DNA of 21,490 nucleotides from a virus: the IMG/VR virus record IMGVR_UViG_3300025098_000333, positions 1 to 21,490 of that record; one strand, written 5' to 3'. This document shows positions 2,817 through 7,745 of this stretch, piece after piece; position 1 is the stretch's first letter; each line of letters opens with the position of its first letter. Under the pieces are notes generated by a model. It was not told the DNA's origin, made no database searches, and was given only the letters and a program-made list of their open reading frames with translations. The position numbers were made by a program, and so were the translations under genes.

Positions 2817-2847
2817 AAAAAGGCGAGACACCTCTCAGTGCCTCGCC
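2817..2847 (-). terminator. Rho-independent terminator of the minus-strand cassette
   Basis: Read on the minus strand, GGCGAG-G-CAC, loop TGAGAG, GTG-T-CTCGCC forms a 10-position stem with one mismatch. It is followed at once by TTTTT. It lies just past the stop of the last minus-strand gene and before the convergent end of the HNH gene, so it stops the cassette transcript from running into the early genes. A second small hairpin (CTAGGC / GCCTAG, 2852-2872) sits between it and the stop codon. Confidence 0.8.
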
Positions 2848-2877
2848 CTAACTAGGCAGGGAAAAAGCCTAGCTTGT

Positions 2878-3108
2878 TTAAATACCCCTCCAACTTATGT
2901 TGTCGGCGTTCTCACATAAGAAAACAGCTAAATCATTTATGCGCTCGTATATATCTTGAGCCAACCAGTATTCAAAAGGTGAACAGGCTTCAGCGTCATT
3001 AATAAACTCAAATAGTTGTTCCCTAGTCATCTCGTCGTGATTTTCGGGATATGGCTCGCAAAGAAAATTTTCGCTTGCCAGTCTGATTGTTTCGGGTGAT
3101 GGGGTCAT
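2878..3108 (-). CDS. Small acidic hypothetical protein, 76 residues
   Basis: Last gene of the minus-strand cassette; not recognised. It has about sixteen acidic against four basic residues, two or three predicted helices (MTREQLFEFINDAEA; YWLAQDIYERINDLAVFL), and cysteines at C17, C42 and C64. No signal peptide or membrane segment is visible. Its ribosome site GAGGAGG is formed by the last Glu codons of the preceding gene, so it is probably coupled to it. Strong net negative charge and small size are shared with the second gene of the cassette and fit a host-protein inhibitor or DNA mimic; that role is inference only. Confidence 0.7.
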   Translation of the reverse strand: MTPSPETIRLASENFLCEPYPENHDEMTREQLFEFINDAEACSPFEYWLAQDIYERINDLAVFLCENADNISWRGI

Positions 3109-3111
3109 GGT

Positions 3112-3303
3112 TTATTCCTCCTCTGTATCGCGCCGCAAATAAGCGGGCTGGTCGATATGGTCTTCGCTGTAAAGCATTGGCGGCCTGAAGTTTACAATGA
3201 CCCGCACGGGCGGCCGCTTGCGTTGCAATACGTCACCAATAATGATTAAGGCCGCTAGGGCGAAAACTACGCCTAAAAAGCCGAATAAAAAATTGATAGT
3301 CAT
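3112..3303 (-). CDS. Small single-span membrane protein, 63 residues
   Basis: Begins MTINFLFGFLGVVFALAALI, a hydrophobic segment covering residues 3-23 that should span the inner membrane, followed by the basic loop QRKRPPVR. The basic residues after the span suggest an outside N-terminus with the tail in the cytoplasm. The remaining 30 residues end in an acidic tail RRDTEEE. It is too long after the span, and too lone, to be a typical spanin, and no holin features are clear. Ribosome site GAAAGGGAG lies upstream. The gene is three bases from the next, in the same operon. Family unknown. Confidence 0.72.
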   Translation of the reverse strand: MTINFLFGFLGVVFALAALIIIGDVLQRKRPPVRVIVNFRPPMLYSEDHIDQPAYLRRDTEEE

Positions 3304-3322
3304 GGTTTAGTCTCCCTTTCGT

Positions 3323-3520
3323 TTACAATAGGTCGCGCAAGCTGGCTGACTTTTGAATCCAATAATCATCAAAGCCACGTTTTTTCATTTCCTCGCTTGC
3401 TATCGCGTTAGCTTTTTCTGGCGATAGTCTCCCGTCAATAATCATAATGCCCCTATCGCCACAAGGTTTCCAATAATTGCCATTCGCAATAATTTCTAAA
3501 AATTCTACATAATATCGCAT
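3323..3520 (-). CDS. Small hypothetical protein, 65 residues
   Basis: Not recognised. It starts MRYYVEFLEIIANGNYW, a strand-rich opening that resembles the start of the first cassette gene (VYYSVEFALIGND). This is followed by GDRGIMIIDGRLSPEKANAIASE (given here without its final residues), then a helix and FDDYWIQKSASLRDLL. Charge is near neutral. The α/β pattern suggests a small folded domain. The start is fixed by GAAAGGGAAAGACT directly before ATG, nearly identical to the leader of the gene before it. A 75-base gap containing a strong hairpin separates it from that gene. Confidence 0.7.
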   Translation of the reverse strand: MRYYVEFLEIIANGNYWKPCGDRGIMIIDGRLSPEKANAIASEEMKKRGFDDYWIQKSASLRDLL

Positions 3521-3558
3521 AGTCTTTCCCTTTCTAATCGGTCACAATTAACCGCGAC

Positions 3559-3584
3559 AATGGGCGACAAATGCGCCGCCCATT
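3559..3584. other. Hairpin in the gap between two minus-strand genes
   Basis: AATGGGCG (3559-3566) and CGCCCATT (3577-3584) form a perfect 8-bp stem with a 10-base loop. Three further pairs are possible after a small internal loop (GCG 3554-3556 with CGC 3587-3589). There is no T-run on either strand, so it is not a standard terminator. It lies directly upstream of the leader of the gene at 3323-3520 and may tune its expression or protect mRNA ends. Confidence 0.5.
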
Positions 3585-3595
3585 CGCGCTGATAA

Positions 3596-3922
3596 TTATG
3601 CGGCTTCCTTTTCTTTCTCCAGACGTTCGGTCACTTCTTCAATAATCATTTGTTCAAGTGCAAAATAGGCAATGCGTGAAGCTGTTTCGTCATAGCTGCC
3701 ATGTTCGGGGAAGCAATCCGCAACGCTATCTTCCGCATGGTTTCGCACATCACTAGGCAACCAACGCACAAAATCATGGGCTTGGCTGTAGTATATAACG
3801 AGCTGGCTGCTATCGGCATGCTGGCTGGCAATGTCGCACAAGTCGTCCTCAGACCAATTCTCACGCTCCGCCATAATATCATCAGCGATTGCCTCAATAT
3901 ATTCATAATAATTTTCAGACAT
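3596..3922 (-). CDS. Highly acidic small protein, 108 residues (possible DNA mimic)
   Basis: About 27 acidic and only 7 basic residues, giving a net charge near -20. The sequence is helical, with a conserved-looking core QHADSSQLVIYYSQAHDFV. This resembles a widespread class of small phage proteins of unknown function with a 'WVIYY' segment. The C-terminus is a charged helix (MIIEEVTERLEKEKEAA). No membrane or signal segment is present. The leader GAAAGGGAAAGATT precedes the ATG. Very acidic small phage proteins include DNA mimics that block restriction or host DNA-binding proteins (Ocr, Gam-type), which is why that role is proposed; nothing in the sequence proves it. Confidence 0.7.
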   Translation of the reverse strand: MSENYYEYIEAIADDIMAERENWSEDDLCDIASQHADSSQLVIYYSQAHDFVRWLPSDVRNHAEDSVADCFPEHGSYDETASRIAYFALEQMIIEEVTERLEKEKEAA

Positions 3923-3944
3923 AATCTTTCCCTTTCATGTTGGC

Positions 3945-3994
3945 CTATCTCATCAGATAGCGGCGGCCAGTCTCGCTATGACGCCCGAAGGCGT
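3945..3994. other. Two hairpins in the gap after the first minus-strand gene
   Basis: CTATCT-CATC-AGATAG (3945-3960) is a 6-bp stem with a tetraloop. ACGCC-CGAA-GGCGT (3981-3994) reads on the transcribed minus strand as ACGCC-TTCG-GGCGT, a C(UUCG)G loop known for unusual stability. The second lies only a few bases past the stop of the gene at 4000-4368. With no U-run they are more likely processing, stability or attenuation elements than terminators. Confidence 0.5.
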
Positions 3995-3999
3995 TTCGA

Positions 4000-4368
4000 T
4001 TAATAAAGGTTATCTTCTCTTGCTTTGTCAGAAACAAGCCACGTCACTTGCTCATCGTCTGATTGCTCTTTCGTATTCATGGCGACCATAAGCTCGCGGG
4101 CTTGGCGACCATTAAACAGAACTCCGTCGGATTTTTCGACAATGCGAACAAGGCCAGCCCTATTCATCATGTTCAAGCCTCTCAATTCTTCAAGAGCGCG
4201 TGACCTTGCTTGCAGGTAACCTAAATCAATTTGCTGGTCTTCTGGCCATTCTTTGCCATTGCTGCCCGTGATAATTTGTGACGGGTAAGAGCAAGCCATT
4301 CCGAATTCAGGCTCTTTGTCATCATTGCCTATGAGGGCAAATTCAACCGAATAATAAACTGTGTTCAT
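4000..4368 (-). CDS. First gene of the minus-strand cassette, hypothetical, 122 residues
   Basis: Not recognised. It opens with strands (VYYSVEFALIGND, FGMACSYPSQIITG), has a helix YLQARSRALEELRGL, then LVRIVEKSDGVLFNGRQARE and a C-terminal VTWLVSDKAREDNLY. It is soluble and mildly acidic. The LVRIVEKSDGVLFNG segment looks like paired strands with a turn. It is the promoter-proximal gene, with GAAAGGGAAAACATT before the ATG and a plausible sigma70 promoter about 40-75 bases further upstream. Being first in a separate leftward transcript, it is a candidate for early, strong expression. Function unknown. Confidence 0.72.
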   Translation of the reverse strand: MNTVYYSVEFALIGNDDKEPEFGMACSYPSQIITGSNGKEWPEDQQIDLGYLQARSRALEELRGLNMMNRAGLVRIVEKSDGVLFNGRQARELMVAMNTKEQSDDEQVTWLVSDKAREDNLY

Positions 4369-4414
4369 AATGTTTTCCCTTTCGATTTGCCGCGTTATTG
4401 CGGCTCACTCGTAT

Positions 4415-4444
4415 TTAATACCATGAGCGAATTGGAATAGTCAA
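4415..4444 (-). promoter_or_regulatory. Sigma70-like promoter of the minus-strand cassette
   Basis: On the minus strand, TTGACT (4439-4444) and TATTAA (4415-4420) are separated by 18 bases, matching the -35 and -10 consensus at 5/6 and 4/6. Transcription would start near 4408. The leader then contains GCCGC-N6-GCGGC (4389-4404), a small hairpin, followed by the ribosome site at 4377-4383. It is the only good leftward promoter seen ahead of the cassette. Confidence 0.6.
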
Positions 4445-4533: not shown

Positions 4534-4872
4534 ATGGCGATAGTGAAAAAGAAAAGGGGAAGGCCAGCGGGGTCTGGTCATGGACAGCAAGTAGTCCATA
4601 AATTGCGGCACGGCTTCGAGGGGGCGCTTGCTGAATTAGACGCTAGGGGTAAGAGCCTGCCCGAATTGCTAGCAGATGCTTTAGAACAAGACGTGAACGG
4701 AACAATCCGCAGCATGGCGGCACTGCTTCCCCGTGATGTAGATATATCGGTCAATGCTGGCGACACATTAGGCGACGCATTAGCGCAAATACAAGTGAAG
4801 CTATCGGAGCGCAAGCGTGGCGAGATTATCGAGGCTGAATTTAGTGAAGCTGATTCACAAAAAGATGAATAG
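4534..4872 (+). CDS. AT-hook protein, candidate small terminase subunit
   Basis: A 112-residue protein with a basic N-terminus KKKRGRPAGSGHG, an AT-hook-like RGRP that grips the minor groove. A helical part follows (FEGALAELDARGKSLPELLADAL, quoted only in part, and GTIRSMAALLPRDVDISV), then an acidic C-terminus. The pattern of 'GRPxGS' tail, helix pair and 'LLP..V' resembles DUF5681-like phage proteins, some of which sit in the small-terminase position. No other terS candidate is present and terL is the next gene, so a role in recognising the packaging site is likely but inferred. The start has TAGGA 8 bases upstream; AAAGGGG lies further away. A 7-bp-stem hairpin (CGTGAAA-CCT-TTTCACG, 4877-4893) follows the stop. 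Confidence 0.6.
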   Translation: MAIVKKKRGRPAGSGHGQQVVHKLRHGFEGALAELDARGKSLPELLADALEQDVNGTIRSMAALLPRDVDISVNAGDTLGDALAQIQVKLSERKRGEIIEAEFSEADSQKDE

Positions 4873-6721: not shown

Positions 6722-6942
6722 TGGCTTATATTGAGTTTGAAGAAGATACAGATGACTTTGACATCTTGGTTGCCACCCTTGATGGCCTGAATGGTCTTGG
6801 CACTGACTGGGACGACCTATTGAACTTGACCTTGCTTGCATCTGCGTATTGTGGTCAAATGGCGGAAATTTCGCCTGACGAATACATGGAGATTGTTTCG
6901 TCCATCCGCGTTACGGAAGATGGCATTTACGGAGAGGCTTGA
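6721..6942 (+). CDS. Small acidic hypothetical protein, 73 residues
   Basis: Starts in the TGATG overlap with terL and ends in the same type of overlap with the next gene, so it is translated in a coupled chain. The sequence is strongly acidic (YIEFEEDTDDFD near the start; ISPDEYMEIV near the end) with a hydrophobic helical middle LLNLTLLASAYCGQMA. There is no Cys pair, signal peptide or recognised motif. It is the only acidic product in a run of very basic small proteins, and could partner one of them or terminase. Function unknown. Confidence 0.75.
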   Translation: MAYIEFEEDTDDFDILVATLDGLNGLGTDWDDLLNLTLLASAYCGQMAEISPDEYMEIVSSIRVTEDGIYGEA

Positions 6943-7061
6943 TGGCTAAGAAAGTTGTAGCTACGTTTGAGGTGCGAACACCAGTGCGTCGCCGTCATAA
7001 AAAACGTGGTCTGCACATTCGTAAGAAGCTCGGCCCGAAAAGCAATATGAGGATTCGCTAA
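6942..7061 (+). CDS. Tiny very basic protein, 39 residues
   Basis: Reads MAKKVVATFEVRTPVRRRHK and continues KRGLHIRKKLG up to a C-terminal NMRIR. More than a third of residues are Lys, Arg or His, so it must bind nucleic acid or an acidic partner. It begins and ends in TGATG and TAATG overlaps with both neighbours, which, with its composition, supports a real gene despite its size. The first strand-like part (VVATFEVRTPV) is followed by a basic helix or arm. No family recognised. Confidence 0.65.
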   Translation: MAKKVVATFEVRTPVRRRHKKRGLHIRKKLGPKSNMRIR

Positions 7062-7336
7062 TGGCTATTGTTTACCGCGGTGAGCGTTTTGCTGGTTACA
7101 ACAAACCGAAGCGTACCCCCAAGCATCCAAAGAAGAGCCATGCGGTTCTAGCAAAAGAAGGTGGCAAGATTCGCCTCATTCGTTTTGGTCAGCAAGGTGT
7201 GCGTGGTGCTGGCAAAAATCCAAAGACTGCAAAAGACAAAGCGCGTAAGCGTTCTTATTATGCGCGTCACAACGCACAAGGTAAGCCGACAACTAAGTTG
7301 TCAGCAAAATATTGGTCACATAAAGTTAAGTGGTAG
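7061..7336 (+). CDS. Basic conserved phage protein, 91 residues
   Basis: Starts MAIVYRGERFAGYNKPKRTP and contains KSHAVLAKEGGKIRLIRFGQ (two strands), GVRGAGKNPKTAKDKARKRS (basic helix) and a C-terminal KLSAKYWSHKVKW. The pattern 'SHAVLAKEG..IRLIRFGQQG...ARxxSYxARH....SAxYWxxKVKW' is one I recognise as recurring in phage genomes beside terminase and portal, without known function; a DUF6321-like assignment is possible but unverified. It is strongly basic and probably binds DNA. The start overlaps the previous stop (TAATG). Confidence 0.82.
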   Translation: MAIVYRGERFAGYNKPKRTPKHPKKSHAVLAKEGGKIRLIRFGQQGVRGAGKNPKTAKDKARKRSYYARHNAQGKPTTKLSAKYWSHKVKW

Positions 7337-7345
7337 GAGTTAGAT

Positions 7346-7468
7346 ATGCCAAACGTAGCAGGAAAAAAGTTCCCTTACACCAAAAAGGGTAAAACAGCAG
7401 CAAAGTCTTATGCAAGTAAGATGGGCAAAAAGGTAGTCAAGAAAAAAGCTACTAAGAAGAAAAAATAA
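7346..7468 (+). CDS. Tiny Lys-rich protein, 40 residues
   Basis: Reads MPNVAGKKFPYTKKGKTAAK, then SYASKMGKKVVKKKATKKKK. The opening MPNVAGKKFPYTKKG with AAKSYA is seen in many phage genomes as a tiny gene near terL and portal; the rest is a poly-Lys tail like those of histone H1-type proteins. It has a good ribosome site (TAGGAG 6 bases upstream) and ends in a TAATG overlap with the next gene. A role in DNA binding or condensation, or as a packaged peptide, is inferred from charge only. Confidence 0.72.
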   Translation: MPNVAGKKFPYTKKGKTAAKSYASKMGKKVVKKKATKKKK

Positions 7469-7596
7469 TGTATGTTACTGTTTACACACGTAACCGTGCC
7501 GCCGAGAAAGCAGCAGCATTGGAAGCGGAGAAAGTAGCTAAGAAGGCTGCACCCAAGAAACGTGGTCGCCCACGCAAACAGAGGACAGAGAAATGA
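7468..7596 (+). CDS. Small AT-hook protein, 42 residues
   Basis: Starts MYVTVYTRNRAAEKAAALEA, a short strand and an Ala/Glu/Lys helix, then a basic tail containing KKRGRPRKQR. KRGRPRK is an exact AT-hook core (R-G-R-P flanked by basic residues), which inserts into the minor groove of AT-rich DNA. It is joined by overlapping start and stop codons to both neighbours. It is the second AT-hook in the window after the protein encoded at 4534. Probably a DNA-binding accessory protein; function otherwise unknown. Confidence 0.68.
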   Translation: MYVTVYTRNRAAEKAAALEAEKVAKKAAPKKRGRPRKQRTEK

Positions 7597-7745
7597 ATTG
7601 CCCACACTGCGGATATCCCAATCCCAATGGTTATACAGAATCCTGCAAGTCTTGCCGCAAGCCGCTGATGGTTGCTCCTGTGGTAGAGAAAAAGCCCAAA
7701 GTAGCTAAGGCGGCTAAAAAGGCTAAAGTATCTAAGAAAGCATAG
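7593..7745 (+). CDS. Small zinc-ribbon protein with Lys/Ala tail, 50 residues
   Basis: Begins MNCPHCGYPN with C3-x2-C6 and continues to C18-x2-C21 (ESCKSCRKP), a four-cysteine zinc ribbon of about 20 residues. The remainder is a tail rich in Lys-Ala-Val (KKPKVAKAAKKAKVSKKA), the composition of histone H1-like DNA-compacting tails. It overlaps the AT-hook gene by ATGA and ends two bases before the portal start. The zinc site plus basic tail suggests nucleic-acid binding. No named family. Confidence 0.75.
   Translation: MNCPHCGYPNPNGYTESCKSCRKPLMVAPVVEKKPKVAKAAKKAKVSKKA

Follow-up and report, generated by a model that had tools for sequence, protein, structure and literature searches.

The window analysed here (the whole stretch of viral DNA, 21,490 nucleotides) contains a minus-strand block of five small genes, c1 to c5, which in our reading probably forms a hypervariable anti-restriction or accessory cassette, expressed as one leftward transcript and split into swappable slots by conserved RNA linkers. 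New are the combination, the c2 family, linkers C and D, and the slot that c2 has in common with ArdA; hammerhead ribozymes flanking ardA are already known. In the direction of transcription, the features of the cassette are:

4415..4444, minus strand: cassette promoter, TTGACT-18-TATTAA, sigma-70-like (TTGACT at 4439-4444, TATTAA at 4415-4420)
4389..4404, minus strand: leader hairpin GCCGC-AATAAC-GCGGC ahead of the c1 Shine-Dalgarno (SD) sequence (z -3.0)
4000..4368, minus strand: c1, first gene, 122 aa; 94% identical in relative L062
3939..4001, minus strand: linker B, the c1/c2 spacer, type II hammerhead (RF02276, 33.7 bits, E 1.5e-4 with 1.9 kb searched)
3596..3922, minus strand: c2, candidate anti-restriction protein, 108 aa, net charge -20; strictly conserved motif DGSEHVIYYxKAH
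3521..3595, minus strand: linker D, structured c2/c3 spacer with a covarying hairpin (z -2.9)
3323..3520, minus strand: c3, 65 aa; phrog_8099 (1.9e-5), 51% identical relative in L056
3112..3303, minus strand: c4, 63 aa, one hydrophobic span; conserved tail LYxExHIDxPAYxRR (alignment A4)
2878..3108, minus strand: c5, 76 aa, net charge -12; 84% identical relative in L010 and a close relative in L132
2816..2849, minus strand: cassette terminator, 13-bp stem followed by a U-run (-22 kcal/mol, z -5.8)

The five open reading frames (ORFs) of the cassette (2878-4368) share one direction, each has an SD-like leader, and they lie between rightward replication genes on one side and rightward terminase genes on the other. 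They are taken to be real genes because each has protein-level relatives elsewhere. The promoter is weak if judged from consensus alone and is missed by a generic promoter scan; TTGAC is present, however, in the first-gene leaders of 13 of 17 relatives (about 13% by chance), usually 74-77 nt upstream of the start codon. Leader hairpins resembling that of the window occur in L008, L010, L016, L017, L028, and L062, and the terminator stretch can be aligned in L062 and L067 (84-91% identical), although the cassette genes there differ. In acidity per residue, c2 and c5 rank second and third among the 26 window proteins. A PADLOC search gave no hits.

This layout agrees with the original prediction of a minus-strand five-gene unit with its own promoter, a terminator with a U-run, two strongly acidic products, and a single-span membrane protein (c4, judged by eye from sequence). 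That prediction did not mention the structured spacers, i.e. the hammerhead and the other RNA linkers, which are the most unusual feature of the cassette. Its description of an otherwise rightward genome holds within the window and has to be limited to it, because another early operon, again running against the main direction, is present in a complete 35-kb relative.

Linker B scores below the Rfam gathering cut-off of 37 bits, which is a curation threshold rather than a biological feature, and is classed as a member of RF02276 because the orthologous linkers in L014, L010, L037, and L062 reach 38.9-46 bits. Its core is intact (CUGAUGA, GAAA, and GUC, an NUH triplet), stems I, II, and III comprise 6, 3, and 5 bp, and cleavage is predicted after GUC, between 3980 and 3979. 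The topology is that of Hammerhead_II: stems I and III are closed by loops, stem II is open, and loop I forms a pseudoknot with the 3' tail. Both the helices and this pseudoknot covary among copies, with four pseudoknot pairs found (TGGCC/GGCCA in the window, TTAGCC/GGCTAA, TTAGTC/GACTAA, and TGATT/AATCA). A descriptor demanding the core, three stems, and the cleavage triplet matched eight times in 0.94 Mb, always in cassettes and on the coding strand, against one match in 9.4 Mb of Markov control sequence. A decayed and inactive relic would be in keeping with the window's score and with the lack of the hammerhead in several close relatives; we regard this explanation as very improbable, as the core, all three stems, and the pseudoknot are preserved and the low score accompanies a stem III that is shorter and capped by UUCG. 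The hammerhead was not found in the cassettes of L008 and L067. An apparent hybrid occurs at L035:377-459, where stem I resembles one L037 copy, the 3' tail resembles the other, and the pseudoknot is lost. A general tie between the hammerhead and the c2 family was rejected, since none was present in the 37 records searched, most of which carry distant c2 relatives.

Linkers C and D were detected by nhmmer, with the linker D subtypes offset by one base in the alignment. BLASTN comparisons between relatives show that the spacers are conserved and the genes are not. Several relatives share linker D at 91-100% identity between genes that are unrelated, and the conserved stretch reaches from the stop codon of one gene to the start codon of the next. 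In L062 and L133, for instance, the linker is identical at 78 of 78 positions, while the 150-bp flanks are 62-63% identical, the level of unrelated sequence here. Compensatory changes affect ten pairs in linker C and three in linker D. Linkers C, D, and F fold as rods, with hairpins adjoining the SD, and wherever a cassette combines linker types, their order is B, C, D. Intrinsic termination was rejected as a function of the linkers, whose hairpins lack a following U-run. Promoter-like sites in the window occur at chance level, and no convincing promoter lies within the linkers. In linkers C and D (window 3521-3598; L062:4334-4418), a middle strand can pair either upstream or downstream, apparently in a mutually exclusive manner. 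In two other loci (L011:3305-4671 and L013:2615-4666), several cassette genes are each preceded by a promoter-like TTGACT leader; a palindrome-like ATGCTAG..AGTAT accompanies it, and a GTAAC/GTTAC hairpin surrounds the SD.

Relatives were collected by a search with the large terminase (TerL), from which 80 loci, many of them 99% identical, were kept; the contigs are partial and related to one another, and their genes were called by a simple script. Phages with 99% identical TerL differ almost completely in their cassette genes. L064, the window's twin, has all five; L062 has only c1 and c2 of the five (94% and 91% identical); and L008 and L067 have only a c4-like gene. At the cassette place, ArdA is encoded in L023 (PF07275, 7.9e-23) and ArdC with a zincin domain in L017 (3.7e-28 and 4.2e-47; homolog in L018), and DUF7227 proteins and an SprT-like protease are found there in relatives as well. 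The recognisable slot genes of relatives are mostly related to anti-restriction or conflict; HTH and membrane proteins are also present in their cassettes. The comparison called for by the original prediction, of gene content between fixed flanks, thus returned the variability expected of an accessory or anti-defence island, with known anti-defence genes (ArdA and ArdC) in some members; since gene sets differ under 99% identical TerL, the five genes are not fixed and collinear. On sequence evidence, the interpretation of the cassette as a phage anti-defence or accessory island is supported, and such a role for the five genes themselves is one that we infer.

The best candidate for such a role is c2. 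Relatives of c2 were found in 38 viral loci, and all 29 aligned sequences have a net charge between -12 and -23. The predicted structure (pLDDT 93.6) is all helical, with a last helix of 31 residues. No match to the family was found in Pfam, PHROGs, a phage collection, or a plasmid collection, and bacterial and archaeal genomes gave one. Judged by its sequences and its structural model, c2 represents a family not described before, acidic and all helical, in which the strict conservation of the motif hints at a specific site and not just at charge. No sequence link to Ocr was detected (hhalign, Pfam, and PDB sequence searches were negative), and c2 was not assigned to that family, and no profile match relates c2 to ArdA (PF07275), the ArdA of the slot being located in L023 and not in the window. 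Foldseek and VIA-align found no clear PDB match for the model, an outcome that does not by itself point to another fold; the best match among viral models is an unnamed protein of 160 aa (E 0.05, TM 0.72).

The arrangement C-c2-D is present in L062, L026, and L028 and C-ArdA-D in L023; in the window itself, c2 is bounded by linkers B and D. Because c2 and ArdA occur between the same two linkers, the most plausible role for c2 is that of an anti-restriction protein. In unrelated phages, members of the family neighbour ArdC (L116), DUF7227 (L118), or a cytosine methylase (L120). Additionally, c2-family genes are divergent from adjoining terminase genes of unrelated types in L108, L112, L121, L123, and L125. 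Profile and family searches found no informative homologs for c1, c3, c4, and c5. Of these, c1 has no Pfam or PHROG family, its AlphaFold model is poor (pLDDT 66, from too few relatives), and a structure search with it gave no match; c4 has relatives in 10 viral loci.

Hammerheads of this kind extend to unrelated viral contigs. A pattern scan covered at least 80 loci, and the counts given here are those among the matches listed: at least 118 hammerheads in at least 74 loci satisfy the stem test, at least 108 of them with a pseudoknot, and 75 of 118 lie between two co-directional genes, at a median of 15 nt upstream of the next start. A gene start lies within 60 nt on the same strand for 85 of 118 and on the opposite strand for three. 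The 156 genes flanking listed hammerheads fall into 144 families; few have any Pfam match, and ArdC (twice) and ArdA (once) are among those few, in tests that name families, not functions. Up to 1.5 kb from a listed hammerhead, 5 of 433 genes are ArdA, ArdC, or c2, against 0 of 852 further away; the contrast is small and includes the window's twin. Runs of up to seven hammerheads between small genes occur among the listed matches (L168:8401-11327 and L208:3616-6709); nearly every copy in these runs has its own pseudoknot sequence, and the L168 run contains ArdA.

We propose that one leftward message would be made early and that the predicted hammerhead would cut it after GUC between c1 and c2. 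The c1 mRNA would keep a UUCG-capped 3' hairpin, and the c2 mRNA would start with a hairpin just before its ribosome-binding site; with such hairpin ends, every gene would have a stable message of its own. Host RNases would probably act at linkers C, D, E, and F to the same effect. As the linkers are the sole sequence common to cassettes with different genes, they could also serve as short homology at which an annealing recombinase, of the ERF type encoded in the complete relative, swaps genes at their borders; the ERF gene is known from that relative, and the corresponding region lies outside the window. In this scheme, c2 would be an acidic protein that inhibits restriction, perhaps by mimicking DNA, and would occupy the place where a relative has ArdA.

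Two other explanations would each retain part of this scheme. The block may be accessory without being anti-defence, with small early genes for host takeover or metabolism sharing a permissive site with anti-restriction genes. The want of informative homologs for c1, c3, c4, and c5, the many uncharacterised slot genes of relatives, and the HTH and membrane proteins in their cassettes would all accord with this; against it, the slot genes that can be recognised are mostly related to anti-restriction or conflict, c2 and ArdA replace each other within one pair of linkers, and elsewhere c2 adjoins ArdC or a cytosine methylase, so that we judge a non-defence block unlikely. The linkers, for their part, may be signals for mRNA processing or stability only, their sharing being a by-product of ordinary homologous recombination. 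We find this rather doubtful: linker D matches between unrelated genes stop at gene borders, linker order is constant, and L035 has a hybrid linker, even if the RNase III-like rods of C, D, and F with hairpins beside the SD, and the same-strand bias of gene starts near the listed viral hammerheads (85 of 118 against three), speak for processing alone. Beyond the cassette that we favour, with its anti-restriction genes in linker-bounded slots, lies a wider and more speculative claim, for which our expectation is still on the low side: that the anti-defence regions of many phages are ribozyme-punctuated slots whose linkers both cut the message and guide swapping, with C and D as undescribed processing elements and c2 as a new class of inhibitor.

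Prophage genes flanked by multiple hammerheads have been described, with the proposal that these cut long phage transcripts down to shorter mRNAs; hammerheads lie upstream of ardA in Legionella and flank it in Agrobacterium tumefaciens, and activity was reported for hammerheads flanking ardA (Perreault 2011, PMC3088659). Those hammerheads share with the window's the ribozyme class and pseudoknot, the occurrence of several per operon, and the position beside anti-restriction genes. Here, in contrast, the hammerhead belongs to a set of linker types that are interchangeable and keep a fixed order, and the setting is a comparatively mapped hypervariable cassette in a 35-kb environmental phage group. 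The promoter-early-stem-loop (PeSL) modules of T4-like phages are, as summarised in PMC4503421, intergenic stem-loops thought to mediate gene shuffling (Arbiol 2010; Comeau 2014). Both these and the window linkers are short intergenic stem-loop modules, and linker D is likewise a conserved intergenic stem-loop between unrelated genes; compared with the modules as that summary presents them, the window linkers differ in that one is a ribozyme and none contains a convincing promoter; promoter-like leaders do precede several genes in relatives L011 and L013.

Like the DNA mimics T7 Ocr (gp0.3) and ArdA, c2 is small, very acidic, and in an early or accessory position, and its all-helical model with a long C-terminal helix is a further point of resemblance; unlike them, it has a strictly conserved motif, and no similarity in sequence or fold was detected. 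The leading regions of plasmids hold anti-defence clusters in which genes of the ArdA and ArdC type are exchanged as blocks, whereas here the cassette is a phage one, beside the terminase, with RNA linkers. With a mapped family of cassettes, the 2011 remark on hammerheads next to ardA becomes a system open to testing, one where anti-restriction genes coincide with ribozymes and with recombination breakpoints. A search for further anti-defence genes could be guided by linker-bounded slots or, in general, by hammerhead-flanked operons, and c2 is its first candidate.

The complete relative has 35,060 bp, a 127-bp end repeat, and an ERF recombinase among its ORFs, among which no integrase was recognised. 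Many contigs end near TerL, which a physical genome end and assembly branching at the variable region would explain equally well. The variable region runs through the small terminase (4534-4872), whose identity ranges from 28 to 100% in phages with 99% identical TerL; the stretch between the two terminase genes is largely conserved. An HNH-like ORF (2277-2687), possibly a homing nuclease, adjoins the cassette and among relatives is present only in the twin L064. After TerL, at 6939-7745, five small ORFs follow in a run, most of them very lysine-rich.
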